Assembly: GCF_007845675.1 (NCBI RefSeq)
Contig: NZ_VOBR01000031.1
Span: forward strand, 53,295 to 117,294
DNA from: Lentzea tibetensis
GTDB taxonomy: Bacteria > Actinomycetota > Actinomycetes > Mycobacteriales > Pseudonocardiaceae
Direction of reading: 5' to 3'
DNA length: 64,000 nucleotides
Position 1 is the first letter of the stretch. The number at the start of each line of letters is the position of its first letter. A program made the position numbers and the translations under genes. Below the pieces are notes generated by a model, which saw nothing but the letters and a program-made list of their open reading frames with translations, searched no databases and was not told where the DNA came from. This document shows, piece by piece, positions 1 to 60,871 of the stretch.

Positions 1-731
1 TGGGGCATTCGATTGGTGAGCTGAGTGCTGCGCACGTGGCCGGTGTGTGGTCACTGCCGGATGCGGCCAAGCTGGTCACGGCTCGGGCGCGGTTGATGCA
101 GGCGTTGCCTGCCGGTGGGGCGATGGCCGCGGTCGCCGCCACCGAGGACGAGGTACTCGAGGTGCTGGCCTCGTGGGACGGTGCGTGTGTCGCGGCGGTG
201 AACGGTCCGTCCACGGTGGTGATCTCCGGGACCGCGGAGGCGGTGGCCGGTGCGGCCGGGGTGCTGGCCGGGCAGGGCCGGAAGGTCAAGTCGTTGACGG
301 TGAGCCACGCGTTCCACTCGGCCTTGATGGAACCGATGCTGGACGAGTTCCGCGAGGTCGCCGAGTCGATCGAGTACCGGGAGCCGCGGATCCCGATCGT
401 CTCGACGGCGGGTGGGGATGTGCGCTCACCGGACTACTGGGTCGAGCAGGTGCGCAAGCCGGTGCGGTTCGCGGATGCCGTTGCCTCACTCGAGGGTGCC
501 TGGGTGGAGATCGGGCCGGACGGTGTGCTCACCGCGATGGTCCGGGACGTGCACGGTGACGTCGTGGCGGCGGCGTTGTGCCGCCGGGACAAGCCCGAGG
601 TCGCCACGCTGCTGACCGGGCTCGCGGAGCTGTTCGCCCGCGGTGTGCCGGTCGACTGGACGCACCACGTTCCCGAGCACCGCGGGCACCTGGAGCTGCC
701 GACCTACGCGTTCCAGCGCGAGCGCTACTGG
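1..731 (+). repeat. Malonyl-AT repeat, partial copy 1
   Basis: Closely similar to 4959-5690 (offset 4956 at GHSIG, 4959 at the YWL end, one codon indel). Identity is lower than in the module 2/3 and 4/6 pairs. The copy is cut by the window edge. Confidence 0.7.
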
Positions 732-3090
732 TTGACCAGGTCGGGCGCCGGGGATCTGCCGGGGACCGGGCATCCGTTGCTGGGTGCGGTGGTCGAGGTT
801 CCTGAGTCGGGTGGTGTGGTGCTGACCGGCCGGGTGTCGGTGGGTGCGCATCCGTGGCTGGCCGACCACACGATCTCCGGCGCGGTGCTGGTTCCCGGTG
901 CGGCACTGGTGGAGATGGCGATCCACGCAGGCGACCAGGTGGACCACCCGGTGCTGGACGAGCTGGTGCTCGAAGCGCCGCTGCGGCTCGACGGTGTCAG
1001 GCGGGTCCAGGTGAGCGTGGGCCAGGTCGACGCCTCGGGGCGACGGCCGGTGTCGATTCACTCCTGTGTGGACGGTGGTGAGTGGGTCCGTCACGCCGCC
1101 GGGTTCGTGGCCAGCGCAGGTGATCGTGGCCGCGATGTGGACCTCGGTGTCTGGCCGCCGGAAGGGGCGCGGCCGGTGGAGCTGGCGGACTTCTACGCGA
1201 CGCTGGCCGACCGCGGCTACGACTACGGTCCGGCGTTCCAGGGCGTGACCGCCGCGTGGATCCGGAACGGCGAGGTGTTCGGCGAGGTCGCCCTGCCCGC
1301 GCAGGAGGATCCGGCGGGGTTCGGCATCCATCCGGCACTCCTGGACGCGGCAACACACCTGTTGTCGCTCAGGAGCTTCACCACCGACGACGACGCGACG
1401 GTCGAGCTGCCGTTCTCGTTGGAGCGGGTCGTGTTGCACGCGACCGGCGCCACGAAGGTCAGGGTTCGGGTCGGGGACGGCATCGACCTCGTCGACGAGG
1501 CAGGCGACCCGGTGCTGCAGGTCGGGTCGTTCGTGACCCGGCCGATGCCCGTCGAGCAGCAGGCCCGCTCCGGGGAAGCGTTGTTCGCGGTGGACTGGGT
1601 CGAGCACTCGGCGCTGGGCAGGAGCACGGCGGCGCGGTGGATCGGGGAACTGGCCGAGGTGCGCGCGGAGCCGCCGAGGTGGGTCGTCCTCACCCCCGGA
1701 GAGAGCGACCTGCCGGAGGTGGGTCGAGTGCGCGCGGAGGTCGCGCGCGTCCTGGCGGTGGTGCAGGAGTTCGTGACGGATCCGGTGTGGGCGTCGTCGC
1801 GACTCGTCGTGGCCACGTGCGGCGGTGAGCTCGATCCGGTCGCCGCGGCGGTGTGGGGCCTGGTGCGGGCCGCACAGGCGGAGAACCCGGAACGGATCAT
1901 GCTGGCCGATCTCGACACCGAGACGGCGGAGCTGGATCTGGACGGGCTCGCCGAAGCAGGCGAGTGGCAGGTCGCGGTGCGGGGCGATCGCATCACCGTG
2001 CCCAGGCTGGTGCGGCTCGGTGAAGAGCAGGTGGGTGCACTCGACCCGGCCGGAACGGTCCTGGTCACCGGTGGCACCGGAAGCCTCGGTGCGCTCGTCG
2101 CCCGGCACGTCGTCACCCGGCACGGCGTGCGCAGCGTGGTGCTGGCCTCCCGGCGCGGCCCCGATGCTCCTGGCGCGGCAGAGCTGCGGGACGAACTGCA
2201 GGATCTTGGTGCGCGAGTGGACGTCGTCGCCTGCGACACAGCGGAACGCGACCAGGTCGAGGCGCTGCTGGCCCGAGTGCCCGCGGACGCGCCGTTGACG
2301 GCCGTCGTGCACGCCGCCGGTGTGCTGGACGACGGTGTGATCACTGCGCTCACCCCGGAGCGGGTGGACACCGTGCTCCGCCCGAAAGCCGACGCGGCAC
2401 TGCACCTCGACGAGCTCACCCGAGGCACCGGGCTCTCCGCGTTCGTGTTCTTCTCCTCGACCGCCGGCGTGCTCGGTAGCGGTGGCCAGGGCAACTACGG
2501 CGCGGCCAACACGTTCCTGGACGCCCTCGCCGAACGCCGGCGGGCGGCGGGCGACTCGGCGGTGTCCATCGCCTGGGGCCTCTGGGCGCAGAGCGGCGGC
2601 ATGGCCGACGGGCTCGGCGACCGGTTCGCCGGCTCCGGGATGCGCGGGTTGAGCGCGGACGCCGGTATGCGACTGCTCGACGCGAGCCTGACGTCGTCGC
2701 GTGCCGTGGTCGTGGCGGCCGATCTCGATCTCCCGCTGTTGCGGCGGGCGCAGGAGGTTCCTGCGGTGTTCAGGAGCCTGACCGGGCGGTCCCGACGGGT
2801 GGCCCGGCAGAACGGCGGCGGCTCCGGGCTGGCCGGACGGCTCGCCGGGCTGGCCGAGGCAGAGCAGCTGGCCGTGCTGCTGGAGTTGGTGCGGGCCGAG
2901 GCCGGATCGGTGCTGGGTGGTGGTTCGGATCTGGTCGGTTCGGGCCAGGCGTTCAAGGACGCCGGGTTCGACTCGTTGACCGCCGTTGAGCTGCGGAATC
3001 GGCTGACCGCGGTGACCGGTGTGCGGTTGCCCGCGACTTTGGTGTTCGACTACCCGAACGCGTCCGCACTGGCCGGGCACCTGCGAACGG
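1..3090 (+). other. Partial extension module: AT(malonyl)-DH-KR-ACP (KS outside window)
   Basis: Residual AT with GHSIG at 3-17 and HAFH at 306-317 indicates malonyl-CoA. The DH active His is at 867-869 within [10 protein letters not shown]. The KR begins near 2046 ([10 protein letters not shown]) with its catalytic Tyr near 2496. The ACP phosphopantetheine Ser (GFDSL) is at 2973-2975. All reductive domains look intact, so this cycle should give an unsubstituted trans- or cis-alkene. Confidence 0.9.
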
Positions 3091-6000
3091 AGCTGACGGG
3101 GTCCGACGAGGTGGTGACGGCGCGCGCCGCGGTGACCTCGCAGGAGCCGATCGCGGTGGTGGGGCTGGGACTCCGGCTGCCGGGTGGGGTGTCGAGCCCC
3201 GAGGACCTGTGGGACGCCCTGCTGGACGGTGCTGACCTCGTCGGGGACTTTCCCGCCGATCGCGGCTGGGACGTCGACGGCCTGTACGACCCGGACCCCG
3301 ACGCGCCGGGGAAGACCTACACCCGGCGGGGCGGGTTCCTGTCGCAGGCGGCGGAGTTCGACGCGTCGTTCTTCGGGATCTCGCCGCGTGAGGCGTTGGC
3401 GATGGATCCGCAGCAGCGGTTGTTGCTGGAGACGACGTGGGAGGCGCTGGAGCGGGCCGACATCGATCCGACTTCGTTGCAGGGAAAGGACATCGGTGTC
3501 TACACCGGACTGATGTACCACGACTACGGCACCAATGCCGGTCCGCTGCCTCCCGGTGTGGAGGGACTGCGGGCGACCGGTGTCTCCGGCAGCGTGGCCG
3601 CTGGTCGGGTCTCGTACGTGCTCGGCGTCGAGGGCCCGGCGGTCATGGTGGACACGGCGTGTTCGTCGTCGTTGGTGGCGATTCACCTGGCGTCGCAGGC
3701 ACTTCGAGCCGGTGAGTGCTCGATGGCGCTCGCGGGTGGCGCCACCGTGATGGCCACCCCCGGCTCGTTCGTCGAGCTGTCCCGTCAGCGCGGGCTGGCG
3801 GCCGACGGCCGGTGCAAGGCTTTCGCCGACGCCGCGGACGGCACCGGCTGGGCCGAAGGCGCGGGCGTCGTGGTGCTGGAGCGCTTGTCCGACGCGCGGC
3901 GCAACGGCCGCCGGATCCTGGGCGTGATCCGGGGGACCGCGGTGAACCAGGACGGTGCGTCGAACGGGTTGACGGCGCCGAACGGCCCCTCGCAGCAGCG
4001 GGTGATTCGGCAGGCGTTGGCGAATGCCGGTCTGGCCGCGGCCGAGGTGGACGTCGTCGAGGCGCACGGCACGGGCACCTCGTTGGGTGATCCGATCGAG
4101 GCGCAGGCCGTGATCGCGACCTACGGTCAGGAACGCGAGACGCCGTTGTGGTTGGGGTCGTTGAAGTCGAACATCGGGCATGCCCAGGCCGCGGCGGGTG
4201 TGGCCGGTGTGATCAAGATGATTCTGTCGATGCGGCACGGTTTGATGCCGCGCACGCTGCACATCGACGCGCCGTCGTCGAAGGTCGACTGGTCGGCGGG
4301 TGCGGTCTCGTTGTTGACCGAGGCGCGTGAGTGGCCTTCGGCTGGCCGTCCGCGTCGGGCGGGTGTGTCGTCCTTCGGTGTTTCCGGGACGAACGCGCAC
4401 GTGATCGTCGAGGAGGCGCCGCCTGTCGGGCCCGTTTCGGTGTCTGATGTGGATGGTGTGGTGCCACTGGTGGTGTCGGCCCGATCGGCTGCCGCGCTGC
4501 AGAGGCAGGCTGACCTGCTTGCAGAGCTTGACGCTGGTGCTGGTGAGTTGGCTGGTTCTCTGGTGGGGCGGTCGTTGTGGGAGCACCGGGCGGTGGTGCT
4601 GGCGGCTGATGGGGACGGGCTTCGTGATGGTCTGCGGGCGTTGGCCGAGGGGCGTTCGGCTCCCGGTGTGGTGACCGGTGTCGCTGATGGGCTCGGCGGA
4701 AAGCTGGTGTTCGCGTTCACGGGTCAAGGTGCGCAGCGGGCAGGTATGGGCCGTGAGCTGTACGAGACCTATCCGGTGTTCGCCTCGAAGTTCGATGAGG
4801 TGTGCGCCGCGCTGGATGCTCCGGTGCGGGATGTGGTCTTTGATGAGCCGGATGGTCGGCTTGATCAGACGGAGTTCACGCAGCCCGCCCTGTTCGCGTT
4901 CGAGGTCGCGCTGGCGGCCTTGTTGCAGTCGTGGGGTGTGCGGCCGGATGTGCTCGTGGGGCACTCGATTGGTGAGCTGAGCGCCGCGCGCGTGGCCGGT
5001 GTGTGGTCACTGGCCGACGCGGCGAAGCTCGTGACAGCACGAGCGCGATTGATGCAGGAGCTGCCCGCCGGTGGGGCGATGACGGCGGTCGCTGCCACCG
5101 AGGACGAGGTTCTCGAGGTGCTGGCCGGGCGAGACGGTGTAGGTGTTGCGGCGGTGAACGGCCCGTCTTCGGTGGTGATCTCCGGGACCGCGGAGGCTGT
5201 TGCTGAGGTCGGCCGCGTGTTCATCGAGCGGGGCCGGAAGGCCAAGCCGTTGACGGTGAGTCACGCGTTCCACTCGGTGTTGATGGAGCCGATGCTGGAC
5301 GAGTTCCGTGAGGTCGCTGAGTCGGTCGAGTACCTGGAGCCGAGGATCCCGATTGTCTCTACGGCTGGTGGCGACATGGGCACGCCGGAGTACTGGGTGG
5401 AGCAGGTGCGCAAGCCGGTGCGGTTCGCCGATGCGGCCACCTCGCTGCGCGATGCGCGGTGGGTGGAGGTCGGTCCCGACGGTGTGCTCACCGCGATGGT
5501 CCGTGATGTGCTCGGTGATGTGGTGGCGGCTGCGTTGTGCCGTCGCGACAAGCCCGAGGTCGCCACGCTGCTGGGCGGCTTGGCGGAGTTGTTCACACAC
5601 GGCGTGCCGATCGACTGGACGCACCACGTTCCCGAGCAGCACGGGCACCTGGAACTGCCGACCTACGCGTTCCAACGCGAGCGCTACTGGCTCACGGCGG
5701 GCTGGGGCGGAGGGGATCTGGCGGGTGTCGGCCTGACCTCGGCGGACCATCCGCTGCTGGCGGCGGTGGTCGAGTCGGTGGACGGCGTGATCCTGACCGG
5801 TCGCATCTCGCTCGCCACGCACGCCTGGCTGGCCGACCACGCGATCTCCGGCACCGTGGTGGTTCCCGGTGCGGCGCTGGTGGAGATGGCGATCCACGCA
5901 GGCGACCAGGTGAGCTGTCCGGTGGTGGATGAGCTGGTGCTCGAGGCGCCGTTGCGGTTGGACGGCGTGACACGGGTGCGGGTCAGCGTCAACGAGATCG

Positions 6001-8237
6001 ACGCGTCCGAACGGCGGCCGGTCTCGATTCATTCCTGTGTGGACGGTGGCGAGTGGGTGCGGCACGCGACCGGCTTCCTGGCGGCGCAGACCTCTGTCGA
6101 CCGGGGTGGCCTCGATGTCTGGCCGCCCGCTGGCGCGCGTTCGGTCGAACTGGACGACTTCTACGCCACCCTGGCCACCCGCGGCTACGACTACGGGCCC
6201 GTGTTCCAGGGCCTGACCGCGGCCTGGGTGCGTGGTGACGAGATGTTCGCGCAGGTCGGGCTGCCCGAGCAGGCGGACGCCACCGGGTTCGGCATTCACC
6301 CCGCGCTGCTCGACGCCGCCCTGCAGACGGCGGGCGTCGCCGGTGCGGACGAAGCCGAGGACGGAGTGCGACTGCCGTTCGCCTGGAACCGCGTCGTCTT
6401 GCACGCGGCCGGGGCGACGGCGGCACGGGTGCGGGTGGTGTCGCGTCCGGACGGGCTCGAGCTCGACCTCGCGGACTCCGCAGGCAAACCCGTGCTGTCC
6501 GTGGGTTCGCTCGTGACCAGGTCGATTTCGCTCGACGCCCTGTCGGACGCCCGCCGGAGGGATCACCTCTACGCGCTCGACTGGCGGCCGATCGCCTCGG
6601 GTGCTGGTCAGCGGCCGACGTTGCTGCTGGAGGTCGACTCGAGCGGCGACGTGCGCGACGTACTGGGGCACGTGCTGAAGGAACTGCAGCAGTTCCTGGC
6701 CGATCCGGACCTGGCCACGAGCGTGCTCGTCGTCGCCACCCGCGGCACGGATCCCGTCGCCGCGGCGGTGTCGGGACTCGTGCGCGCGGCGCAGGCGGAG
6801 AACCCCGGCAGGTTCCTGCTGGCGGACTTCGAGAACGGCGAGGTCGAGCTCGACGTCGACGGGCTGGCCGAAGCGGGCGAGTGGCAGGTGTCGGTGCGCG
6901 ACGGCCAGGTGCTCGCACCGCGTCTCGTGCGGGCCGACGAGGAACCGGGCGAGGTGCTCGGCCCCGACGGGACCGTGCTGATCACCGGCGGCACCGGCAC
7001 GCTGGGTGCGTTGGTCGCCAGGCACGTGGTCACCGCGCACGGCGTGCACAGCCTGGTGCTGGTGTCCCGCAGGGGAGTCGACGCACCGGGTGCGGTCGAA
7101 CTGCGGGGCGAGCTGGAGGAACTCGGGGCGCGGGTGGAGATCGTCGCCTGCGACATCGCCTCTCGCGCGCAGACCGAGGCGCTGCTCGCCGGGATCGAGG
7201 ACCTGACCGGCGTGGTGCACACCGCGGGTGTGCTCGACGACGGGGTGATCACCGCGCTCACGCCGGAACGGCTCGACGGGGTGCTGCGGCCGAAGGTCGA
7301 CGCCGCCGTGCACCTCGACGAGCTCACCCGCGGCCGCGGGCTGGCCGCCTTCGTGTTGTTCTCCTCGGCGGCCGGTGTGTTCGGCAGCGGTGGTCAGGGC
7401 AACTACGCGGCGGCCAACGCGTTCCTGGACGCGCTCGCTACGCGTCGTCGCGCGGACGGCGAGGCGGCCGTGTCGCTGGCCTGGGGCGCTTGGGAAAGCG
7501 GGATGGCGGGCGAGCTCGGCCACGCGGACCTGGCGCGGATGGCGAGGTCCGGTATGCGGACGCTCGACCCCGAGCAGGGCATGGCGCTGTTCGACGCCGG
7601 GCTGGCATCCAGCCGCGCCGTTCTGGTGCCCGCCGCGCTCGACATCGCCGCGTTGCGCAAGACGGGAAGCCCCGCGCTGCTGCAGGAGCTCACCGGGCGA
7701 GGCAGGCGCGCCGCTAGCAACGCCCTCGCGGCAGGTGCCTTCGCGGACCGGCTGGCCGGGCTGACGGAGACTGAACGGCGCGCCGCGCTCACGGAGCTCG
7801 TCCGCACCGAGGCCGCGGACGTGCTCGGCGGTTCGACGGACCTGGTGCGGGCCACCGGCGCGTTCAAGGACGCCGGGTTCGACTCGCTGACCGCGGTCGA
7901 GCTGCGGAACCGGCTCACCGGGCTCACCGGCGTCACGTTGCCGGCCACGATGGTGTTCGACTACCCGAACCCCGCCGCGCTGGCGGACTTCCTGCACGGT
8001 CACCTGGCCGGGCCGAGCACCGGATCCGTCGACGAGGAACAGCTCAGGCGCAAGCTCGTCGAGCTACCCGTCCATCGACTGCGCGAGGCAGGACTCCTGG
8101 ATGCGTTGCTGCGTCTGGTGAACACCGCGGACACGGCTCCCGAACTGCCGGATGCCGACGTGATCGACGAACTGGACACCTCGAGCCTGCTGAAGATGGC
8201 GCGGGAAACGCTCAGCCTCACCGGAAGCGAAGGGTGA
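1..8237 (+). CDS. Type I modular PKS, two-module 3' part (start lies upstream of the window); ansamycin-type line
   Basis: The reading frame is open from the first base, which falls inside an acyltransferase just before its active-site GHSIG (Ser at 9-11), so the gene begins upstream. Visible order: AT(partial)-DH-KR-ACP, then KS-AT-DH-KR-ACP, then a C-terminal docking region (about 8019-8234). Both ATs carry GHSIG plus HAFH, the malonyl-CoA signature. Both DHs keep HxxxGxxxxP and a downstream HPALLDA aspartate. Both KRs have the TGGTG NADPH loop, LDD (B-type) and the Tyr-Asn pair. The KS has the DTACSSS cysteine (3660-3662). Each cycle should therefore add a two-carbon unit and leave a double bond. 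The stop overlaps the next PKS start (GTGA), so the two are co-translated. The amide synthase two genes downstream assigns the line to ansamycin-type macrolactams (established for RifF/GdmF families). The long helical C-terminus should dock onto the N-terminal coiled coil of the next protein. Confidence 0.95.
3144..8016 (+). other. Extension module: KS-AT(malonyl)-DH-KR-ACP
   Basis: The KS starts at about 3144 and its Cys is at 3660-3662. Its N-terminus reads GLGLRLPGG where most KS domains have GxxCR. The AT Ser is at 4965-4967 with HAFH near 5262-5273. The DH His is at 5838-5840 ([10 protein letters not shown]). The KR starts near 6966 and the ACP Ser is at 7884-7886. Predicted product of the cycle: a second unsubstituted C=C. 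Confidence 0.92.
4959..5690 (+). repeat. Malonyl-AT repeat, copy 2
   Basis: Partner of 1-731 in the next module of the same protein. Shares long blocks including the DEFREV and [13 protein letters not shown] regions. Confidence 0.7.
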
Positions 8238-11200
8238 CGGGAATGACCGAGAACACCGAGGCTGTCGTGACCGCGTTGCGGGAGTCGCTGAAGGAGATCA
8301 AGCGTCTCCGGGAACGGAACGCGCAGCCGATCGCGGTTGTGGGCGTCGGGGTGCGGTTGCCCGGCGGGGTCACCGGCCCTGACGACCTGTGGGCCGCACT
8401 GGCGAACGGCTCCGACCTGGTGGGTGACTTTCCCGCGGACCGCGGCTGGAACGTCGACGGGCTGTACGACCCGGACCCCGAGGTGCCGGGCAAGTCCTAC
8501 ACCCGCAGCGGCGGGTTCCTGTCGCAGGCGGCGGAGTTCGACGCGGGGTTCTTCGGGATCTCGCCGCGTGAGGCGTTGGCGATGGATCCGCAGCAGCGCC
8601 TGCTGCTGGAGACGTCCTGGGAGGCGCTCGAACACGCGGGGCTGGCTCCGGACGCGCTGCGGGGCCGCGACATCGGTGTCTACACCGGACTCATGTACCA
8701 CGACTACGGGCTCGGAGCGCCGCCCGCCGAACTCGAAGGCATGCGTGGAGTCGGTGCCGCGGGCAGCGCGGCCGCGGGCCGGGTGTCCTACGAGCTGGGC
8801 CTGGAAGGGCCCGCTGTGGTCATCGACACGGCGTGCTCGTCGTCGCTGGTGGCGATTCACCTGGCGGCGCAGGCACTGCGGGTCGGTGAGTGCTCGATGG
8901 CGCTCGCCGGCGGCGTGACGGTGATGGCTTCTCCGGAGTCGTTCGTCGAGTTCTCCCGGCAACGCGGACTCGCACCGGACGGCCGGTGCAAGGCGTTCGC
9001 CGAGGGCGCGGACGGCACCGGGTGGGCCGAGGGCGTCGGTGTCGTGGTGCTGGAGCGGTTGGTGGACGCACAGCGCAACGGCCGCCGGATCCTGGGGGTG
9101 ATCCGCGGGTCGGCGGTGAACCAGGACGGCGCGTCGAACGGCTTGACGGCGCCGAACGGTCCGTCGCAGCAGCGGGTGATCAGGCAGGCGCTGGCCAATG
9201 CGGGGATCGCTGCTACCGAGGTGGATGTTGTTGAGGCGCACGGCACGGGCACCTCGCTGGGTGATCCGATCGAGGCTCAGGCGTTGATCGCGGCTTATGG
9301 TCAGAATCGTGAGACGCCGCTGTACTTGGGGTCGTTGAAGTCGAACATCGGTCATGCGCAGGCTGCGGCCGGTGTTGCTGGTGTGATCAAGATGATTTTG
9401 TCGATGCGCCACGGTGTCATGCCGCAGACGCTGCACGTCGACGCGCCGTCGTCGAAGGTCGACTGGTCGGCTGGTGCGGTGGAGTTGTTGACCGAGGCGC
9501 GTGAGTGGCCTTCGGCTGGTCGTCCGCGTCGGGCAGGTGTCTCGTCCTTCGGTGTTTCCGGGACGAATGCTCACGTGATCGTGGAGGAGGCCCCGCCTGT
9601 TGAGCTGTCCGTGCTGTCTGCTGTGGACGGTGTGGTGCCGCTCGTGCTGTCGGGCCGGTCAGCAGAGGCGTTGCGAGGTCAGGCTTCCCGGTTGACCGAG
9701 GTTGATGCGGGTGTGGGCGAGGTGGCTGGCGCCTTGGTCTCGCGGTCGCTGTGGGAGCACCGGGCGGTGGTGCTGGCGGCTGATCGCGGCGAGGCCGTTG
9801 GTGGTCTGCATGCGTTGGCTGAGGCACGCTCAGTCCCTGGTGTGGTGACCGGTGTGGCTGATGCCGCGGGGAAGACGGCGTTCGTCTTTCCTGGGCAGGG
9901 TGCGCAATGGGTGGGTATGGCTCGCGGCTTGTGGGCTGCTGATCCGGTGTTCGCCGCACGGATGGCCGAGTGTGAGCGGGCCCTGGCCTCGGTTGTCGAC
10001 TGGTCGTTGGCGGATGTGGTGCACGGTGTCGAAGGTGCGCCGACCATCGATCAGGTTGATGTGCTCCAGCCGGTGTCGTTCGCCGTGATGGTGTCGCTGG
10101 CGGCGGTGTGGCAGGCGTCTGGGATTCGGCCGGATGCGGTGGTCGGGCATTCGCAGGGTGAGTTGGCGGCGGCGTGTGTGGCTGGTGCGTTGTCGTTGGA
10201 GGATGCGGCGCGGATTGTTGCTTTGCGCAGTCAGGTGATCGCGGCGGAGCTGGCTGGCCGTGGCGGGATGATGTCGATCGCTGAGCCGGTGGAGCGGGTG
10301 GCCGAGCGCCTCATCGATCGGGTCGAGATCGCTGCGGTGAACGGGCCTGCCAATGTGGTGGTGGCTGGTGATCTGGACGCGTTGGAGTCGCTGCGGGACG
10401 CCTGTGAGAGCGATGGTGCGCGGGCTCGGTTGATCTCGGTGGACTATGCGTCGCACACCTGGCACGTGGACGCGATTCGCGAGCGGCTGGCGGAGTTGCT
10501 GGACGGCATCGCGTCGATCGCTCCGGCCGTTCCGTGGCTGTCCACTGTGGATGGCGAGTGGATCAACGGGCCGGTTGACGCCGGCTACTGGTTCCGGAAC
10601 CTGCGGCAGCGGGTGCGGTTCGCGGAGGCCGTCGGTCGGCTCGCGAACGAGGGCTTCGGTGTGTTCGTGGAGGTGTCGAGCCATCCGGTGCTGACCTCCT
10701 CAGTCGAAGACTTGGTCGGCCCCGGGAAGGTCGTGTGCGGGACGTTGCGGCGGGATCAGGACGAGCAAGCCCGGTTCCTGCAGTCCCTGTCCGAGTTGTT
10801 CGTGCGGGGTGTGCCGGTCGACTGGAGCCGATACGTCCCGGCTGGCGGGCATGCCGAACTGCCGACCTATGCGTTCCAACGAGAGCGGTACTGGCTGGCA
10901 GGATCGAACGCCGGTGATCTCGAGACCGTCGGACTCGCCGGGAGCGGTCACCCGCTGCTGGGTGCCGTGGTGGAGTCACCGGAGGGCGTGACGCTGACCG
11001 GCCGGATCTCGCTGAGCACCCACCGGTGGCTCGCTGATCACGCCGTGTCGGGCGTGGTGATCGTCCCCGGTGCGGCGCTGGTGGAGATGGCCATCCACGC
11101 GGGCGACCGGATCGACCACCCGGTGCTGCAGGAACTGGTGATCGAGGCGCCGCTGCGACTCGGCGGCGAGGCCGTCGTGCAGCTCAGGGTGAGCACGGGC

Positions 11201-13387
11201 GAGGAGGACGATCTCGGGCGCAGGCCCGTGTCGATCCACTCCCGGCCGGACGGCGGCGAGTGGACCCGGCACGCGACGGGCTTCCTGGTCGAAGACGAGC
11301 CCGCGGGGCCGGACGGCGATCTCGTGGTGTGGCCGCCCGCCGACTCCCAGCCGGTCGGACTGGACACCTTCTACGACACGCTGGCCGGGCGCGGGTACGA
11401 CTACGGCCCGCTGTTCCGCGGGCTCACCGCGGCGTGGGTGCGCGGTGACGAGGTGTTCGGCGAGGTCACCCTGCCCGACAACGCCGACTCCGGCGGGTTC
11501 GGCATTCACCCCGCGCTGCTCGACGCGGCACTGCACGCGGGCTCGGTGACCACGGCGAGCGTGCGGCGCAAGGGCGTGGCCGGGGCGGTCGACCTGCCGT
11601 TCGCCTGGAACGACGTCGTACTGCGGGCCAGCGGTGCGCGCAGCGTCCGGCTCCGGGCCGTCCTGCGCGACGGGATCCGGCTCGACCTGGCCGACCCGAT
11701 GGGCGAGCCCGTGCTGTCGGTCGGTTCGCTGACGACCAGGCCGGTCGCGCTCGACCAGCTCGAGGCGCCGAAGCACAACGACGCGTTGTACGCGGTCGAC
11801 TGGAAGACGGTGCCCGCGCCGGGCACCGGTACGGAGTCCGCCGTCCTGGTGTCCGATGTGGACGATCTGGAGACGGTCAAGACCTTCAGCCTCGGCCAGC
11901 CTCCCGCATGGCTGGTTCTCCGCGCCGATGTCGACGGCGCACCCGCGACGGAGACCGTGCAGGTGCGGGCCGTGCTGACCCACGTGCTGCGGGTGCTGCA
12001 GACGTTCGTCGCCGACGAGGCGTGGAGCTCGACCCGGCTCGCGGTCGCCACCTGCTCCGCGGTGATCGCCGGGCCGGGCGACCTGGCCGATCCCGTCGCC
12101 GCGGCGGTGTGGGGGTTGGTGCGCGCCGCGCAGACCGAGCACCCGGACCGGATCCTGCTCGCCGACCTGGAGAAGCCGGTGGACGACGACTCCGCGGCCG
12201 CGCTCGCGCTCGACGCGCTGGCCGCCGCGGGGGAGTGGCAGGTGGCCGTGCGGGGCGACGAGGTGCGGGTGCCGCGGCTGGTCGCCGCCGATCAGCACGC
12301 GGTGGACGGGCGCGAGCTCGACCCCGCGGGCACGGTGCTGATCACCGGTGGTACCGGGACGCTGGGTGGAATGGTCGCCAGGCACCTCGTCACCGAGCAC
12401 GGCATCCGCTCGGTCCTGCTGGCGTCGCGGCGCGGCCCCGAGGCCGCGGCCGCGATCACGGCGGAGCTGGAGGCACTCGGTGCGCGGGTCGACGTGGTCG
12501 CCTGCGACACCGCCGACCGCGACCAGGTCGCGGCGCTGCTCGCCCGAGTCCCGGCCGATGCTCCGCTCACCGGCGTGGTGCACGCGGCGGGTGTGCTCGA
12601 CGACGGAGTGATCTCCGCGCTCACCCCGGAGCGGATCGACCACGTCCTGCGGCCGAAGGTCGATGCCGCGGTGCACCTGGACGAGCTGACCAGAGGGATG
12701 GGACTGGCGGTCTTCGCTCTGTTCTCCTCCGCGGCAGGCACGCTGGGCGGTGCCGGTCAGGCCAACTACGCCGCCGCCAACACCTTCGTCGACGCCGTGG
12801 CCGAACGGCGGCGCGCCGCCGGTGAGCCCGCGATCTCCCTGGCCTGGGGCTACTGGGAGCAGAGCAGCGAGATGACGGCGAACGTCGGCGACACCGAGCT
12901 GTCGCGGATGGCACAGGCCGGCGTGCTGCCGCTCGACTCCGCACTGGGCCTGCGTTTGCTGGACACCGCACTGCGCTCCCCGCGGGCCGTGCTGGTACCG
13001 ACCGTGCTGGATCGCAGGCAGCTGCGCAAGATGACCGCCGCGCCCGCGATCCTGCGCGGACTGGCCGGCCGGGGCAGGCGGGTCGCGAACACGGTGAACG
13101 CCAGCAAGGACCTGCTCGCCCGCCTCGAACGGCTCACGGCCGAGGAGCGGCTGACCGAGCTGACGGCGCTGGTGTGCGCGGAGGCCGCCGCGGTGCTCGG
13201 CGCGGCGGGCACCGACCTGGTCGCGGCGAACGCGGCCCTGCTGGACATCGGGTTCGACTCGCTCACCGCGGTCGACCTGCGCAACCGGCTCACCGGCCAC
13301 ACCGGACGGGCGTTGCCGTCGACGCTCGCCTTCGAGTACCCGACCCCGGAGATGATCGCCGAACACCTGCTGGAAGAGATGTTCTGA
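8234..13387 (+). CDS. Type I modular PKS, single module KS-AT(methylmalonyl)-DH-KR-ACP; last module of the ansamycin-type line
   Basis: This 1717-residue protein has an N-terminal coiled-coil docking helix (about residues 4-30), KS (32-455, DTACSSS), AT (547-890; GHSQGE and YASH, the methylmalonyl signature), DH (905-1150; [10 protein letters not shown]), KR (1365-1560; [17 protein letters not shown]) and ACP (GFDSL Ser near residue 1676). It ends directly after the ACP with no docking tail. That is expected for the final module, whose chain is handed to the free-standing amide synthase just downstream. The start shown is the GTG overlapping the previous stop (GTGA). An ATG at 8243, preceded by AGGG, is an equally acceptable start and removes three residues. 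Predicted cycle: addition of a methyl-branched unit with dehydration, giving an alpha-methyl alpha,beta-unsaturated amide. Confidence 0.95.
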
Positions 13388-13403
13388 CAGAAGGGAAGTG
13401 ACC

Positions 13404-14153: not shown

Positions 14154-14164
14154 AGGAGATCGAC

Positions 14165-17027: not shown

Positions 17028-43646
<26,619 letters not shown>

Positions 43647-43654
43647 ACCGGTGT

Positions 43655-43659: not shown

Positions 43660-43667
43660 TGTTTTCC

Positions 43668-48743: not shown

Positions 48744-48745
48744 TC

Positions 48746-51700: not shown

Positions 51701-54700
51701 GGCCTGGCGCAGACGCTGAACCTCGTGCAGGCCGTGGGAGACCGCGAACTGCCCGTGTGGTGCGCGACCACGGGCGCCATGAGCACCGGGCAGGACGACC
51801 TCGTCGAGCATCCGGACCAGGCGATGGTCTGGGGTCTCGGTGCGATCGTGCGGGTCGCCCACGCGCACCGCTGGGGCGGCCTCATCGACCTGCCGGGCAC
51901 GTTCGACGACACGACCGGTGCCCGCCTCGCCGCCGTGCTCACCGGGACCGGTGAGGACCAGATCGCGTTGCGCGCCAACGGAACGCACGCGCGCAGGCTG
52001 GTGCGCGCACCGTTGAACGGCAGGCCGGGACACCGCGCGTGGCGGCCGGAGGGCACGGCGCTCGTCACCGGTGGCACCGGCGCCATCGGCGCGCACGTGG
52101 CCCGCTGGCTCGCCAGGAACGGCGCGCCGCACCTGCTCCTGTTGAGCAAACGCGGTCCGGACGCGCCCGGCGCTGCCGAACTGGAGGCCGAGCTGACCGA
52201 GCTCGGCTCACGGGTCACCCTGGTCGCCTGCGACCTGGCCGACGCGGGTTCGCTCGCCGACGTGCTCGCGCTGGTTCCCGACGAGCTCCCGTTGCGCGCG
52301 GTCATGCACACCGCGGCGATGCTCGACGACGCGCTGGTCGACGACCTGACCCGCGAGCAGATGGACCGCGTGCTGCGGGTGAAGGCCGAGGCGGCGCGCA
52401 ACCTGCACGAGCTCACCGCGGACGCCGACCTGACCGCGTTCGTGCTGTTCTCCTCGCTGGCGGGCACCGCGGGCGACATCGGGCAAGCGAACTACGCGCC
52501 CGGCAACGCCTACCTCGACGCGCTCGCGCACCACCGGCGGGCCCGCGGGCTCCCCGCGACCTCGGTGGCGTGGGGGCACTGGGCGGGTGGCCTCGGCGAC
52601 GGCATCGTGGACGGCAGGCTGCGGCGCCTCGGTGTCCGCACCCTCGAGCCGCGCGTCGCACTCGAAGCGCTGCAACCACTTCTCGACCACGACGACGCGT
52701 TCGTCGCGGTGGTGGACGTCGAGTGGGCCAGGGCGGGTGGAGCGGTCGACGCGCCCCGGTTCAACCGGCTCCTGCTCGGCCTCCCGGAGATCGAGGCGGC
52801 GCTGCGCGAGCTGGAGCCGCGGCAGCAGAAGTCCCTGTCCCGCGCGGAACTGCTGGAGCTCGTGCGCACCCAGGCCGCCATCGTGCTGGGACACGAGGGA
52901 ACGGCTGCCGTCGAGCCGACACGGGCGTTCGCCGAGCTCGGGTTCGACTCCGTGACCGCGCTCGAGCTGCGCAACCACCTCAGCGCCGCGACCGGGCTGA
53001 AACTGCCCGCGACACTGGTCTTCGACCACCCGAACCCGGTCGCGCTCGCCGATCACCTGCACGGCGACGTCGGTGAACCAGACGTTCCGGTGGCGGCGGT
53101 CGCGGACGACGACCCCGTGGTGATCGTGTCGATGAGCTGCCGGTTCGGCGGCGGGATCGGCTCTCCCGAAGAGCTGTGGCGGGTGCTCGCGGACGGCCGC
53201 GACGTGCTGTCCGGCCTGCCTGCCGACCGGGGCTGGGACACCGAGCGGCTGTACGACCCCGAGCAGGACCGCGCGGGCACCAGCTACGTCGGCGCAGCCT
53301 GCTTCCTCGACGACGCGGCCGCGTTCGACGCGGCGTTCTTCGGCATCTCGCCCCGCGAGGCCACCGGCATGGACCCGCAGCAACGACTGCTGCTCGAGAT
53401 GTCGTGGGAGGCGTTCGAACGAGCGGGCGTCGACCCGAAGTCGTTGCGCGGCAGCCAGGTCGGTGTGTTCGTCGGCGGGAGCGGCGGCGACTACGGCGGT
53501 CTGCTCGCCGGCAGCGCCGAGGCCGCGGACGGCTTCCTGATCACCGGCAACGCGGCGAGCGTGGCATCCGGCCGGGTGTCCTACGCCTTCGGGCTGGAGG
53601 GTCCGTCGGTCACGGTCGACACGGCCTGCTCGTCCGCGCTCGTGGCGCTGCACATGGCGGCCCAGTCGCTGCGGACGGGCGAGTGCTCGCTCGCACTCGT
53701 CGGCTCGGCGGCCGTGCTGGCCACCCCGACGACCTTCGTGGAGTTCAGCCGTCAGCGCGCGTTGGCGCCGGACGGCCGCTGCAAGCCGTTCGCCGCCGCC
53801 GCCGACGGCACGGCGTGGGGCGAGGGCGGTGGCGTGCTGGTGCTGGCGCGGCTGTCCGACGCCCAGCGGCACGGTCACCCGGTGCTCGCCGTGCTGCGCG
53901 GGTCCGCGGTCAACTCCGACGGCGCCTCCAACGGCCTCACCGCGCCCAACGGCCCGGCTCAGCAACGGGTGATCCGCAAGGCGCTCGCGGCCGCCGGTCT
54001 GTCCACTTCGGACGTCGACGCGGTGGAGGCGCACGGCACCGGCACCAAGCTGGGCGATCCGATCGAGGCCGAGGCGCTGCTCGCGACCTACGGCCGCGAC
54101 CGCACCACACCGCTGTTGCTGGGTTCGGTGAAGTCCAACATCGGCCACACCCAGGGCGCGGCCGGGATCGCGGGCATCGTGAAGACGGTGCTCGCGCTGC
54201 GGCACGGTGTGCTGCCCCGGTCGCTGCACGTCGACTCGCCGTCCCCGCACGTGGAGTGGTCGGCGGGGTCCGTGGAGCTGCTCACCGCCGAGACCCCGTG
54301 GCCCGCGCACGACCGGCCTCGCCGCGCGGCGGTCTCCGCGTTCGGCATCAGCGGCACCAACGCTCACGTGATCTTGGAAGGTGTCGTCGACGGCACACCC
54401 GGTGATGTGAAGACGCCGGCTGCCGCGCAGCCGTGGCTGTTGTCGGCGCGCACGCCTGAGGCGCTGCGGGAGCTGGCGGCGCGGCTGGCCGAGGTCGACG
54501 CTGACCCGGCTGACATCGCGTTCACCCTGGCGACCTCACGAGCGGGCCTGGAGCACCGGGTCGCGTTCACCGATCCGGGGGCGCTCGCCGCCTACGGCCG
54601 AGGTGAAGCGGTTCCCGGTGTGGTCAAGGGGATCGCCCGCGCGGGCAAGGTCGCCTTCGTCTTCCCCGGCCAGGGCGCGCAGTGGGCGGGCATGGCCGTG

Positions 54701-57700
54701 CGACTGGCGGAGGAGTCACCCTTCTTCGCCGCACAGCTGGCGGAGTGCGGCGCCGCGCTCGGGATGGACCTGACCGCCGTGCTCGCCGATGAGGACGCTC
54801 TGCGTCGCGTCGACGTCGTCCAGCCCGCGTTGTTCGCGGTGATGGTGTCGCTGGCCCGCCTGTGGCGCTCGGCGGGCGTCGAACCGGACGCCGTCGTCGG
54901 CCACTCGCAGGGCGAGATCGCGGCGGCGGTCGTGGCCGGGGCGCTGTCGCTCGCCGACGGCGCGCGCATCGTGCGGCTGCGCGCCAAGGCGCTGACCTCG
55001 GTGTGCGGGCAGGGCGGCATGGTGTCGGTGGCGCTGCCACGCGACGAGGTGCCGCTGACCGGGGGACTGTCCATCGCGGCCGTCAACGGTCCGTCCGCCA
55101 CCGTCGTCTCCGGCGCGAACGACGCACTGGACGCGTTGCTGTCGCGCTGCGCGGACGTCGGCGTGCGCGCCAAGAGGATCCCGGTCGACTACGCGTCGCA
55201 CTCCGCCCAGGTGGAGGCACTCGAAGCGGAGATCGTGTCCGCGCTGGCCGACGTGCGCCCGCGGTCGTCCGAGGTGCCGTTCTTCTCGACGGTCACCGGG
55301 CAGTGGCTGAACACCGCCGAGCTGGACGCCGCGTACTGGTACCGCAACCTGCGGGAGACCGTGGAGTTCGGCCCGGCTGTGGCCACGCTGACCGACCAGG
55401 GCTTCGGGCTCTTCGTCGAGGCCAGTCCGCATCCTGTGCTCGTGCCGGAGATCGACGCCCCGGCGTGCGGCACGCTGCGCCGCGACGACGGCGGCCTGGA
55501 CCGCTTCCTCGCCGCGCTCGCCGAGGCGCACGTGCACGGCGCCGTCGTCGACTGGCGCTCGGTGCTCACCGGGCGGTTCGTCGACCTGCCGACCTACCCG
55601 TTCGAACACGAGCGGTTCTGGCCCACGGTGCGGCGCGACGATCGGTCCGTTGTGGACGGATGGCGCTTCGGTGTGAGCTGGAAGCAGCTGACGGAACGCA
55701 CCGGCACGCCGGAAGGCACGTGGCTGGTCGTGGTGCCGGACAACGACGTGGACCTGCACTGGCTGCCGGACATCGACCACCGGGTGGTCGTCGGCGCCGA
55801 ACGGGTGGACACCGGCGAACCGATCGCCGGCGTGCTGTCACTGCTGGACGTCTCGGGCACGGCTGATCTCCTCCGCACGATCGACGCGCCGCTGTGGTGC
55901 GTCACCAGCGGAGCCGTCGCGGTGGGGACCTCGGACCAGGTCACCAGTGCCGAACAGGCTCAGCTGTGGGGGTTCGGCCGGGTCGCCGCGCTCGAACACC
56001 CGCGGCGGTGGGGCGGGCTGATCGACCTGCCCGCGACGTCCGGCACGAAGACCAGGGAACGGCTGGCCGCGGTCCTGTCCGGGGCCTACGGCGAGGACCA
56101 GGTCGCGGTGCGGCCGTCCGGCGTCTACGCGCGCAGGCTCGTGCGGGCTCCGCTCGGTGCGAACCCCAGGCAGGACTGGACACCTCGCGGCACCGTGCTC
56201 GTCACTGGCGGCACGAGCGGTGTCGGTGCGCAGGTCGCGAGGTGGCTGGCCGAGCAGGGCGCCGAACGCCTCGTGCTCGCGAGCAGGCGCGGACTCGACG
56301 CGCCCGGTGCGCGCGAACTGGTCGCGGACCTGGGTGTCCCGGTCAGCGTGGTGGCGGCGGACGTCGGCGACCGGGACGCGGTCGCGGCGCTGCTGGCGGA
56401 CCACGACGTGACGGCCGTGTTCCACGCCGCCGCGGCGATACCTCGCGGCTCGGACCAGGCGGCGATCGCGGAAGCCTTGCACGCCAAGGTCTCCGGCGCG
56501 ATCCACCTGGACGAGCTGGCCGGTGACCTGGACGCGTTCGTGGTGTTCTCGTCGATGGCGGGCGTGTGGGGGAGTGGCGACCAGGGTGCCTACGCCGCGG
56601 CCAACGCGCACCTCGACGCGCTGGTGGAGCTCCGCAGGCAACGCGGCGCCCGCGGCACGTCGGTGGCCTGGGGTCCGTGGGGCGGTGGCGGCCGGGTCGA
56701 CGCGACGGCGGAGGAAGTGCTGCGGCGCAGGGGAATGCCGCCCATGCCACCGCGGCTCGCACTGACCGCGCTGCACCAGGCGCTGTCGCACGACGAGACT
56801 TTCGTCGGCGTCGTGGACGTCGACCTGTCGGTGTTCCTGCCGACGTTCACGTCCGTGCGCGCCAGCACGTTGTTCGACGAGATCGTGCCGCCCGCGCCGC
56901 AGAGCGACGCACCGGTGGTCAAGATGCACGGACGGGCGCTGCTCGACCTCGTGCGGGCGCAGGCGGCCGCGGTGCTCGGGCATGCCTCGCCCGACGCGGT
57001 CGACACCGACCGGGCGTTCCGCGACGCGGGCTTCGACTCGCTGATGGCGGTGGAGTTGCGCAACCGGATCGCCGCCGAGACGGGGCTGAGCCTCCCGGCG
57101 ACGGTCGTCTTCGACAACCCGACGCCTGCCGCGCTCGCGGAGTTCCTGTCCGGTGATCGCGAGACCGAGATCGTCGACGTCGTCGCGACGGACGAGCCGA
57201 TCGCGATCGTCGCGATGGCGTGCCGCTATCCGGGCGGCGTGTCCTCGCCGGAGGACCTGTGGCGGATCGTCTCCGACGGGACCGACGTGCTGACGGCGTT
57301 CCCCGCCGACCGCGGCTGGGACGTGGACTCGCTGTACGACCCGGACGGCAGGCCCGGCACGTCGTACGTGCGCGAAGGTGGTTTCCTCGACGCTGTCGGG
57401 GACTTCGACGCCGACCACTTCGGCATCAGCCCGCGCGAGGCGCTGGCGATGGACCCGCAGCAGCGGTTGTTGCTGGAGACGACGTGGGAGGCGTTCGAAC
57501 GCGCGGGCATCAACCCCCGGTCGGCGCGCGGCAGCCGGACCGGAGTGTTCGTCGGCACCACAGGCCAGGACTACCACCTGCTCGCGGGCGCGGGCACGGA
57601 CAACGGGTACCTGATGACCGGCAACTCGGGCAGCGTCCTGTCCGGCCGGATCGCGTACACCTTCGGGCTGGAAGGACCTTCGCTCACCGTCGACACCGCC

Positions 57701-60700
57701 TGCTCGTCCTCGCTCGTGGCGCTGCACCTGGCGGCGCAGGCGCTGCGGGCGGGCGAGTGCACCCGCGCGATCGCGGGCGGCGCGGCGGTCATGTCGACCC
57801 CGGCCGCGTTCGTGGAGTTCAGCAGGCAACGCGGGCTGGCTCCGGACGGCCGGTGCAAGGCGTTCGCGGCCGCCGCCGACGGGACCGGATGGGCCGAAGG
57901 CGTCGGCGTGCTGCTCGTCGAACGGCTGTCCGACGCGCTGCGCGACGGCCATCCCGTGCTGGCGGTCCTGCGCGGCAGCGCGGTGAACTCGGACGGTGAG
58001 TCCAACGGACTCGCCGCGCCGAACGGCCGCGCCCAGGAGCGGGTCATCAGGCAGGCACTGGCGAGTGCGCGGCTCACACCGTCCGAAGTGGACGCGGTGG
58101 AGGCGCACGGCACCGGTACGAAGCTGGGCGACCCGATCGAGGCGCAGGCGCTGCTCGCCACCTACGGCCAGGACCGCACCGAGCCGCTGCACCTCGGGTC
58201 GGTGAAGTCCAACATCGGCCACGCACAGGCCGCGGCCGGCGTCAGCGGCGTGATCAAGATGGTCATGGCCTTGCGCCACGAGAGCCTGCCGCGCACGCTG
58301 CACGTCGACGAGCCGTCGCCGCACGTGGACTGGTCGCGGGGCGCGGTCCGGTTGCTGACCGAGCCGGTCGAGTGGCCGCGCGGGACGACGCCGCGCCGGG
58401 CGGGTGTCTCGGCGTTCGGTGTCTCCGGCACCAACGCGCACGTGATCCTCGAAGAGCCTCCGGCACCCGCGGTCGACAGCACCCGCGAGACGTCATCGAC
58501 CGCACTCCCCGTCGTGGTCTCGGGGCGGTCGGCCGAGGCGGTGCGGGCGCAGGCCGCTGAGCTGAAGGCGTTCGTGGAGCAGGAGAATCCGGACCTCGCG
58601 GACCTGGCGCTGTCGCTGGCGACCACGCGCGCCGCGCTGGAACACCGGGCCGCCGTGGTGGCCGAGGACCACGCGGAACTGCTGCGCGGACTCGACGCGA
58701 TCGCCACCGGGGCGCCTGGCGTGGTGCGCGGCACGGCGAGGAGCGGCGGGCTCGCCTTCCTGTTCACCGGCCAGGGCGCTCAGCGACTGGGCATGGGACG
58801 GGAACTGTACGAAGAGTCCGCTGTGTTCGCGGCGGCGTTCGACGAGGTGTGCGCGCAGCTGGAGCCGGTGCCGGTGCGCGAGGTGATGTGGGGCGATGAC
58901 GCCGCGGCGCTGGAGCAGACGGGGCACGCCCAGCCCGCGCTGTTCGCCGTGGAGGTCGCCCTGTTCGCGCTGGTCCGGTCGTGGGGCGTGGAGCCGGAGG
59001 TGCTGGCCGGGCACTCGATCGGCGAGATCGCGGCCGCGCACGTCGCGGGCATGCTGTCGCTGGCCGATGCCGCGAAGCTCGTGGTGGCGCGCGGCAGGCT
59101 CATGCAGGGACTTCCCGCCGGTGGCGCGATGGTCGCGATCCGGGCGGCGGAGGCCGAGGTGGCCGCGGCGCTGCCGGACGGCGTCGACATCGCCGCGGTC
59201 AACGGCCCCGAGGCCACGGTCGTCTCCGGTGACTCCGCGTCGGTGCTGCGCTGTGCCGACCACTGGAAGTCGTTGGGACGCAAGGTCAAGCGCCTGCCGG
59301 TGAGCCACGCGTTCCACTCCGGTCTGATGGAGCCGATGCTCGCGGAGTTCCGCGAGGTCGTGCACGGGCTGGAGTTCCGCGACCCGGTCATCCCGATCCT
59401 GTCTACGGTGACCGGCGAGCGGCTGCGGCCGGACGACCCGGAGTACTGGGTGACCCAGGTGCGCGCGACCGTGCGGTTCTCGACCGCCGTCCAGACGCTC
59501 GCCGGTTCGGGCATCACCACGTTCCTCGAGATCGGCCCGGACGCGGTGCTGTCCGCACTGGGTGGGGATTGCGCGGACGCGGTGTTCGTGCCGCTGCTGC
59601 GAGCGGACCGTCCCGAGCTCACCACGGCGCTCACCGCGCTGGCGGAGCTGCACGTGCACGGTGTGCCGGTCGACCTGACCGCGTCGTGCGGCGGGGCGCG
59701 CCGGATCGACCTGCCGACGTACGCGTTCCAGCGGCAGCGGTTCTGGCTCGGGGCGCCGGTCACCCGGCCTGCCTCGCCGGCACCGGACGCGGTCGCGGCA
59801 CCCGAGGTGGCCGATCTCGTGCTGGCCTCGATCGCGGCCGTGCTCGGCCACCCCGACACGGACGCGGTGGACGCGGACCGGGAGTTCCTCGAGCTCGGCT
59901 TCGACTCGATGACCGCGGTCGAGCTGCGCACGATGCTCACCGAGGCCACCGGGCGCGAGCTGCCCGCCGACCTCACCTACCGCTTCGCCACACCGAGAGA
60001 GCTGGCCGCGCACCTGGAGACCGGGGCCGAGTCGTCCGCACCGAGTCCGCACAGCGTCGAGTCGCTGTACGTGGACGCGTGCCTCGACGGCCGCGGTCGC
60101 GAGTTCATGAACGTGCTCACCCAGCTCGCGCGATTCCGGCCCGCGTTCGACAACCCGCTCGACCTGGACCACGCGCCACGCCCGGTGCGCCTCGCCCGCG
60201 GCGACGGCGGGCCGCACCTGATCCTGCTGCCCGCGATCGTCGGGTTCGCGGGAGCGCAGCAGTTCACCCGGTTCGCCTCCGGTTTCGCGAGCCACGACGT
60301 GTCCGTCCTGCCGGAGCCGGGGTTCCGGCCGGGCGAGCTGCTGCCCGCCGACCTCGACGTCGCCGTCGAGTCGCTGGCCATGGCGGCGGTGCGGCTCGCG
60401 AACGGGCAACCGTTCGTCGTCGGTGGCTACTCCTCCGGCGCGTTCGTGGCGCACGAGGTGGTGCACCGGCTGGAGAAGCGCGGTCACGCCGCGGACGGGC
60501 TGGTGCTGCTGGACGTCTACCTGCCGCAGGCCGCCGCCGCGATTCCGGGCTACGAACAGGGCGTGCTGGACGGGCTCGTCGCGCGCCGGGACCTGATCAT
60601 GGGCGCAGGCGACGAGTGGCCGACCGCCATGGCCCGCTACTGGGACTACTTCTGGGACTGGAAGCCCGCCCAGACTTCCACGCCGACCCTGCTGGTGCGC

Positions 60701-60871
60701 GCGACCGAGCCGATCTCCGCGGAGGCGGCCGCGCACGACTGGCGGTCGGACTGGGAGTTCGACTGCGACGTCGTGGACGTGCCGGGGAACCACTTCACCT
60801 TCATGGAAGACCATGCCGCCCAGACGTCACGGGTCGTGCGGGAATGGCTGATGCGAAAGGACCGGACATGA
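48746..60871 (+). CDS. Type I modular PKS (4041 aa): modules 7-9 and terminal thioesterase of the macrolide-type line
   Basis: Order: docking coiled coil (1-31), KS-AT-KR-ACP, KS-AT-KR-ACP, KS-AT-ACP, TE. The last module has no reductive domain, so the beta-carbon stays a ketone, giving a 3-keto acyl chain or a 3-hemiketal after ring formation. The C-terminal TE (about residues 3770-4041) has GYSSG (Ser near 3896), LLDVY and GNHFTF, matching a serine hydrolase of the macrocyclising PKS TE family. The presence of a TE shows this is the end of the second assembly line, distinct from the amide-synthase line upstream. Start: ATG 48746, 2 bp after the previous stop, with GGGGAG about 10 nt upstream. 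The stop overlaps the methyltransferase start (ATGA), so tailoring is translationally coupled. Confidence 0.97.
48839..53070 (+). other. Module 7: KS-AT(VPSH, unassigned extender)-KR-ACP
   Basis: KS Cys near residue 204. Its usual [10 protein letters not shown] stretch reads [10 protein letters not shown] here. The AT (about 552-880) has GHSQGE but VPSH near residue 736 in place of YASH/HAFH, so the extender cannot be assigned. The KR (near 1103) is B-type with LDD and NYAPGN. ACP Ser near 1401. Predicted: hydroxyl. Confidence 0.86.
53102..57150 (+). other. Module 8: KS-AT(methylmalonyl, YASH)-KR(A-type)-ACP
   Basis: KS Cys near residue 1629 (DTACSSA). Its REGGFL segment reads GAACFL. The AT (about 1968-2290) has YASH. 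The KR near 2482 lacks LDD and has the AGVWGS tryptophan, making it the only A-type KR in the window; the QGAYAAAN Tyr is intact. ACP Ser near 2765. Predicted: methyl branch and a hydroxyl of configuration opposite to the other KRs. Confidence 0.87.
57190..60030 (+). other. Module 9: KS-AT(malonyl, HAFH)-ACP, non-reducing
   Basis: KS Cys near residue 2987. The AT (about 3335-3665) has GHSIGE and HAFH near 3522, the malonyl signature, and is the only malonyl AT of the macrolide line. The ACP follows directly (GFDSM Ser near 3721). No KR, so a C3 ketone is expected. Confidence 0.9.
60055..60868 (+). other. Thioesterase domain
   Basis: Alpha/beta-hydrolase with the nucleophile elbow GYSSG (Ser codon near 60431), an Asp in LLDVY and a His in GNHFTFMED. 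The second Ser after Tyr replaces the more usual GHSAG arrangement. It should release the chain as a macrolactone. Confidence 0.9.

Follow-up and report, generated by a model that had tools for sequence, protein, structure and literature searches.

Reports exist on antibiotic pathways that lie side by side in a genome or answer to one regulator. In Streptomyces rapamycinicus the actinoplanic acid cluster has been placed directly downstream of a polyketide synthase (PKS) cluster, that of rapamycin (PMC12298158); the available part of that report describes neither an ansamycin nor a co-directional run with a shared extender operon. Geldanamycin and elaiophylin are an ansamycin and a macrodiolide under GdmRIII, with control through precursor flux proposed, but the available parts of the sources describe their clusters in opposite parts of the chromosome and as inversely regulated (PMC6627628 section 9, PMC6784220). 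The cephamycin-clavulanate super-cluster, in the part of the source available, joins adjoining pathways under one SARP, CcaR (PMC6627628); these are beta-lactam pathways, whereas BTAD (SARP-like) genes are only candidate regulators in the locus considered here. Joined pathways are already known, but a search of open-licence literature found no account of an ansamycin line and a thioesterase (TE)-released line that follow each other on the same strand, head to tail, and have a single extender operon dedicated to them. The present analysis concerns a window of 64,000 bp from Lentzea tibetensis, the whole stretch that was analysed (positions 53295-117294 of contig NZ_VOBR01000031.1, here C35), in which an ansamycin-type PKS (line A) is followed by a macrolide-type PKS (line B). 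It is judged probable that two modular PKS pathways, independent of each other, stand in tandem at the locus, with methoxymalonyl-ACP supplied from one fkb-type operon. By its two kinds of chain release and its likely single source of extender, this pair probably goes beyond the known joined pathways.

Geldanamycin/macbecin-type clusters have in common with line A an AMP-ligase-ACP loader, an amide synthase followed by an FAD enzyme, fkb-type genes and ATs with the motif FAGH. We take the names geldanamycin and macbecin for the compared clusters from their architecture and from the structures of the compounds, including the methoxy carbons. In these clusters the FAGH ATs are in modules 2 and 5 (Streptomyces violaceusniger) or in module 2 (genome G068, and G066 of the same genus). 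Line A differs in having FAGH in module 1, nine modules instead of seven, no KR-like domain found in the loader, its 3-amino-5-hydroxybenzoic acid (AHBA) genes on another contig and a second PKS downstream.

Two assembly lines on one strand

The window is the 3' end of C35 (117,294 bp), part of a genome of 9.36 Mb in 105 contigs (G000), and the 53,294 bases upstream were joined to it, with agreement in the overlap. All accepted genes in the window are on the forward strand, as are those from C35:15847 to the contig end. The widest gap in the window, between the FAD enzyme and a cytochrome P450, is 55 bp with a GTG start or 58 bp with an ATG three bases on; further upstream the gap sizes vary with the start codons chosen.

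The PKS genes of line A extend from about C35:16650 (window -36644) to window 13387. They encode the AMP-ligase-ACP loader and nine extension modules with DH-KR (1, 4 and 7-9), DH-ER-KR (2, 3 and 5) or KR (6). The module 4 KR is without the usual cofactor motif and active-site tyrosine. Since the 53 kb upstream of the window hold the loader and the earlier modules, line A is read as a nine-module ansamycin-type line. Its final domain is a bare ACP (residues 1647-1712 of 1717 in the module 9 protein), and the gene for an amide synthase starts 10 bp after this PKS. Rif names for such proteins are used as labels. The best solved relative of the amide synthase is GdmF (135 bits, E 2e-38), and its Cys, His and Asp are residues 73, 111 and 126, a spacing that matches the GdmF triad as given in the available part of PMC6784220. 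The enzyme is taken to release the line A chain as a lactam. Of 32 related ansamycin loci, 12 have a homologue of the FAD enzyme on the same strand, no more than 200 bp after the amide synthase, so the FAD enzyme is assigned to line A, whose ring it would probably oxidise.

The AHBA that would prime line A is expected to come from elsewhere in the genome, a locus on contig C31 (7.3-17.8 kb). This locus holds an AHBA synthase (638 bits to 1B9H), an AHBA-associated HAD protein (TIGR01454; 309.6 bits against a cut-off of 246.65), a type II dehydroquinase and a DHQ-synthase family protein that are both above their cut-offs, a ROK-like kinase that scores under the curated cut-offs and an oxidoreductase assigned by eye. 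The AHBA synthase of S. violaceusniger is likewise away from the PKS, by about 0.6 Mb. After priming, the nine modules would extend the chain and the amide synthase would free a macrolactam.

Line B consists of a KSQ-AT-ACP loader, nine modules and an in-line TE. Its modules carry KR (1, 5, 7 and 8), DH-KR (2, 3 and 6), DH-ER-KR (4) or no reductive domain (9). The active site of the opening KS departs from the usual one (10 protein letters, not shown here, for C). No docking domain was found ahead of the KSQ in the first line B protein, whereas the second and third have one. Line B would be started by KSQ decarboxylation, extended by its nine modules and released by the TE, and the product would probably be a macrolactone that is then methylated and glycosylated.

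Much of this architecture had been given in a preliminary description made from the window, and most of it held up: the bare ACP followed by an amide synthase, the co-directional genes with a largest gap of 58 bp, the KSQ opening at 17028 and, apart from one boundary, the coordinates. The exception is the in-line TE, which was found at the C-terminus with its GYSSG but starts at 60200 by its own profile and not at 60055 (its end being 60868). The glycosylated macrolide suggested there agrees with the KSQ start, the separate TE and the glycosyltransferase gene downstream, the line being macrolide-type by its domains. The extension upstream that it had proposed yielded the ansamycin-type loader, and the AHBA genes came to light on C31 instead; the lack of starter genes upstream, which it had set against its own reading, thus applies to the AHBA genes and not to the loader.

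The KS domains fall into two sets. Identity is 73-84% within line A, 61-71% between line A and B1-B9 and 63-79% within B1-B9, so that the line A set is tight and that of line B looser; the KSQ is 44-47% identical to all other KS. DH domains are 50-70% identical within line A and 37-53% between the lines, KR domains show a similar tendency except for that of A6, and in the AT tree the ATs of lines A and B separate within each AT class. The switch from one KS set to the other lies between KS A9 and KS B1. Exact repeats of at least 60 bp number 22, each inside one line (the longest being 129 bp in line A and 92 bp in line B), and none touches C35:66.0-71.3 kb. By the gap list and the absence of a repeat at the junction, the two pathways are taken to be physically joined.

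An AT patch common to both lines

The AT motifs of line A are YASH (A2, A4, A6, A9), HAFH (A3, A5, A7, A8) and FAGH (A1). Those of line B are VAGH (loader), YGSH (B1-B3), FAGH (B4, B6), YASH (B5, B8), VPSH (B7) and HAFH (B9). The ATs of A1, B4 and B6 have a patch of about 70 residues in common. In the 70 columns around FAGH, where identity is partly built in by selection of the rows on these letters and where two S. violaceusniger rows are identical, B4 has a mean identity of 64% to six FAGH rows (B6 excluded) but, for seven non-malonyl ATs from line B itself, of 39%; beyond the patch the order is reversed (54% against 66%). The corresponding values for A1, with seven FAGH rows and four ATs of its own line, are 59% against 35% inside and 57% against 68% outside. 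Agreement within the patch also extends beyond the FAGH letters (W, RLW, RW, LPG). Four FAGH rows were placed in a tree of 62 ATs and fall within their own lines there, and whole-domain identity does not group A1 with B4 and B6; it is the patch, therefore, and not the whole AT domain that is shared.

Among 391 family genomes, a patch core of 10 protein letters turned up in 4: L. tibetensis has three copies, each of them on C35, while G066, G068 and G086 have one apiece. A scan of 84,980 species returned six stretches in four genomes, namely A. pretiosum, S. violaceusniger (2), S. endocoffeicus (2) and Streptantibioticus silvisoli (1), with G066 and G086 not among them. Counting G068 once with A. 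pretiosum, the carriers other than L. tibetensis are G066, G068, G086, S. violaceusniger, S. endocoffeicus and S. silvisoli, and an AHBA synthase is present in five of these six. An FkbH lies 19-42 kb from the patch in the four carriers read (G066, G068, G086 and S. violaceusniger; S. endocoffeicus and S. silvisoli were left out). The patch is in module 2 of G066 and G068 and in modules 2 and 5 of a seven-module geldanamycin-type line with amide synthase and fkb genes in S. violaceusniger. The methoxy groups of the geldanamycin chain correspond to modules 2 and 5. In L. tibetensis there is a single FkbH match at E<=1e-40, upstream of line A. Given where the patch occurs, its company of AHBA synthase and FkbH, the two geldanamycin-type modules and the single FkbH, methoxymalonyl-ACP is the likeliest extender for A1, B4 and B6. 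The available parts of two sources include methoxymalonyl among the geldanamycin ATs without naming modules (PMC6164871, PMC7242659), and methoxymalonyl AT motifs are called poorly defined in the part of PMC7489565 available. The four letters FAGH alone were rejected as a mark of one extender or the other; what counts is the patch as a whole and its occurrence, and the patch may help to recognise one kind of methoxymalonyl AT by sequence.

The fkb-type set lies at the 5' end of C35 (C35:1677-5687). It is complete, in the order 3-hydroxyacyl-CoA dehydrogenase, ACP, acyl-CoA dehydrogenase, FkbH-like HAD protein and O-methyltransferase, which is K-J-I-H-G in Fkb letters, and a carboxyltransferase-like gene adjoins it. 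Both lines probably draw methoxymalonyl-ACP from this operon, line A at A1 and line B at B4 and B6, and would on that account share a dedicated building block. As a rare building block would then come from the same small gene set, the lines are probably a linked pair and not chance neighbours. If so, loss of fkbH alone should alter both products, which opens joint production to direct experiment. The lines may perhaps also share regulators, the BTAD (SARP-like) genes being candidates. BTAD and LuxR-type regulators are encoded at C35:8278-15203, on the strand opposite to the PKS run, and paralogues occur near both the C35 and the C31 locus for BTAD regulators (57% over 990 residues) and for ROK-like kinases (50%), which hints at common control. 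Products, extender identity and co-expression we infer from sequence. A bolder form of the proposal holds that line B gained, as a patch in two ATs, the methoxymalonyl-ACP recognition of benzoquinone-ansamycin lines, that both lines depend on one fkb operon within one expressed run of about 101 kb, and that they form a coupled pair whose products evolved for joint making; to this we give slightly less than an even chance.

An ansamycin locus of G086 (C1:8484421-8553000) has a two-module line on the forward strand beside the amide synthase and five modules on the reverse strand, one with the FAGH patch. An AHBA-bearing line of G213 (contig C13) has an AAGH AT at about 111080, and no fkb genes were found in the 60 kb read.

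Relatives and alternative explanations

At E<=1e-30, 28 of 391 family genomes, L. tibetensis among them, have a match to the amide synthase, and the best match outside L. tibetensis is 39% identical. In a class sample of 394 genomes the number at E<=1e-38 is 5, again with L. tibetensis counted, and the best match elsewhere reaches 47%. From these searches 34 loci were fetched; in 32 the amide synthase comes directly after PKS domains, and the two in which it does not (L105, L121) were excluded. No KS match indicating a second PKS was found downstream of the 32 ansamycin ends, in flanks of 1.0-15.6 kb (under 5 kb in L108, L120 and L123). The excluded L121 does have a downstream KS, at a distance of 13.8 kb, but the NAT there is not at the end of a PKS. 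A related-locus search of genome contigs with the amide synthase found no relative, and among the matches listed from plasmid records (8 of 176 records) all are NATs of at most 35% identity. The line B TE, at E<=1e-40, has matches in 47 of 391 family genomes (own included), with the best-scoring other at 43% and none among the matches listed above 45%. Six stretches at the closest TE relatives showed P450s after the TE in five and other genes in one, and no glycosyltransferase, FkbM or PfkB homologue was found in them. The KSQ region is too common to inform: 161 of 391 genomes, counting L. tibetensis, match it at E<=1e-120 (with the Q not checked). As neither line has a close relative, no conserved pairing was seen.

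Several observations weigh against the tandem with a common extender supply. A clean split by line holds for KS only: KR A6 is 66% identical to B8 and only 45-56% to line A, and the ACPs do not split by line. No DegT aminotransferase or DHQ synthase match was found on C35, so the AHBA genes are outside the PKS contig; the common ansamycin layout, according to the available part of PMC11213898, is PKS, NAT and AHBA genes in that order. S. silvisoli carries the patch in a PKS (L189, contig 72001-80000) and gave no AHBA synthase match. FkbH occurs without the patch core in G202 (four matches) and G149 (one), and G066a and G057, both with fkb genes, yielded three ATs apiece, all of them YASH or RAFH and without the patch; the patch therefore marks at most one kind of methoxymalonyl AT. 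The available part of PMC7496768 lists XAGH (X = F, T, V, H), and with it FAGH, as an ethylmalonyl motif, and the genome has one crotonyl-CoA carboxylase/reductase (CCR), on C33 (605 bits, above cut-off). The second PKS gene of line A, with module 4, runs in two overlapping frames (C35:35697-38519 and 38281-51345). The change, between AT and DH at C35:38281-38519 (window -15013 to -14775), may reflect either an error in sequencing or a true loss, and because of this break near C35:38.4 kb line A may be dead or mis-sequenced. The assembly is, moreover, a draft of 105 contigs.

Some of these points would suit two unrelated clusters that became neighbours through recombination and share nothing, the odd line B ATs taking ethylmalonyl-CoA: the listing of FAGH for ethylmalonyl ATs and the CCR fit this explanation, as do the distinct KS sets and the lack of any conserved pairing. 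It is considered unlikely, since the patch core is missing from 387 of the 391 family genomes while most of its other carriers have an AHBA synthase, the patch stands in geldanamycin-type modules 2 and 5, the gaps from the amide synthase to the first line B gene are all at most 58 bp, and the 16 kb around the CCR showed no PKS domain. The draft state, the exact repeats within each line and the frame break of line A could be taken to mean that the two lines were joined in assembly and are not adjacent in the cell. This is very improbable, as all 22 repeats stay within one line and away from the junction, and the KS set changes between the last KS of line A and the first of line B; a repeat-caused form of the mis-join near 15.7 kb, which the preliminary description had named as a way in which it could fail, is unsupported. 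Least credible is a single pathway, with line A passing its chain on to line B or the amide synthase acting for both lines. The common strand and tight spacing would allow it, but line A has a release enzyme of its own right after its final ACP, the KSQ begins near the N-terminus without the docking domain that line B proteins 2 and 3 have, and line B has its own TE, which also speaks against the feeding of the downstream line by upstream modules that the same description had considered. The tandem of two independent pathways with one source of methoxymalonyl-ACP is the reading retained here.

Feature coordinates and neighbouring genes

Table 1. Features of the two PKS lines and their neighbours (window positions unless marked C35)
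Feature	Position	Strand	Remarks
Line A loader gene	C35:16650-35687	+	ligase residues 36-540, ACP 566-632
Line A PKS, modules 7-8	3-8237 (gene start C35:51389)	+	KS-AT-DH-KR-ACP twice; malonyl-type ATs (HAFH)
Line A PKS, module 9	8234-13387	+	docking-KS-AT-DH-KR-ACP, bare ACP end
Amide synthase (NAT family, GdmF-like)	13398/13404-14153	+	Pfam Acetyltransf_2, E 5e-41
FAD monooxygenase	14165-15727	+	
Cytochrome P450	15783-16994	+	no line assigned
Line B PKS 1, KSQ-AT-ACP loader and modules 1-5	17028-43646	+	
KSQ domain	17058-18140	+	VDCGQSSSL; begins at about residue 10
AT specificity patch core, line B module 4	35400-35428	+	10 protein letters, not shown
AT specificity patch core, line B module 6	45867-45895	+	10 protein letters, not shown
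Line B PKS 2, module 6	43653-48743	+	KS-AT-DH-KR-ACP
Line B PKS 3, modules 7-9 and TE	48746-60871	+	
In-line thioesterase	60200-60868	+	GYSSG; own profile
FkbM-family methyltransferase	60868-61662	+	
Glycosyltransferase	61659-62888	+	weak likeness to Rgt and macrolide glycosyltransferases, all below curated cut-offs
PfkB-family sugar kinase	62864-63844	+	

The contig stops at window 64000, so the line B cluster may be incomplete. No sugar-making genes were recognised among the C35 gene calls, a result obtained without a family-directed search. A PfkB-type kinase directly after a glycosyltransferase gene was judged unusual for a macrolide cluster. One reverse-strand open reading frame (C35:113940-114788) kept by the mechanical gene caller was dropped because the forward frame there is that of the FkbM methyltransferase. 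Between 13300 and 17300 no promoter-like site was found, and one terminator-like site compares with 1.4 in shuffles. Five Rfam ASpks matches (a TB antisense sRNA) above the gathering score, on the reverse strand at 24933-58207, were given no weight; they are antisense to PKS modules and are probably conserved PKS coding DNA.

Beside the AHBA genes on C31, an orphan protein (C31:8236-11088, reverse strand, L030) has an AMP-ligase 54% identical to that of the line A loader and a weak KR-like match, and neither ACP nor KS was found in it. It may be a remnant of another ansamycin loader. A stretch resembling it occurs inside a PKS gene in G353, and a KR-like domain is also present in the S. violaceusniger loader. 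Within line B, the ATs of modules 4 and 6 (34851-35771 and 45318-46238) are 94% identical, with exact repeats of up to 77 bp, which is read as recent copying inside the line.

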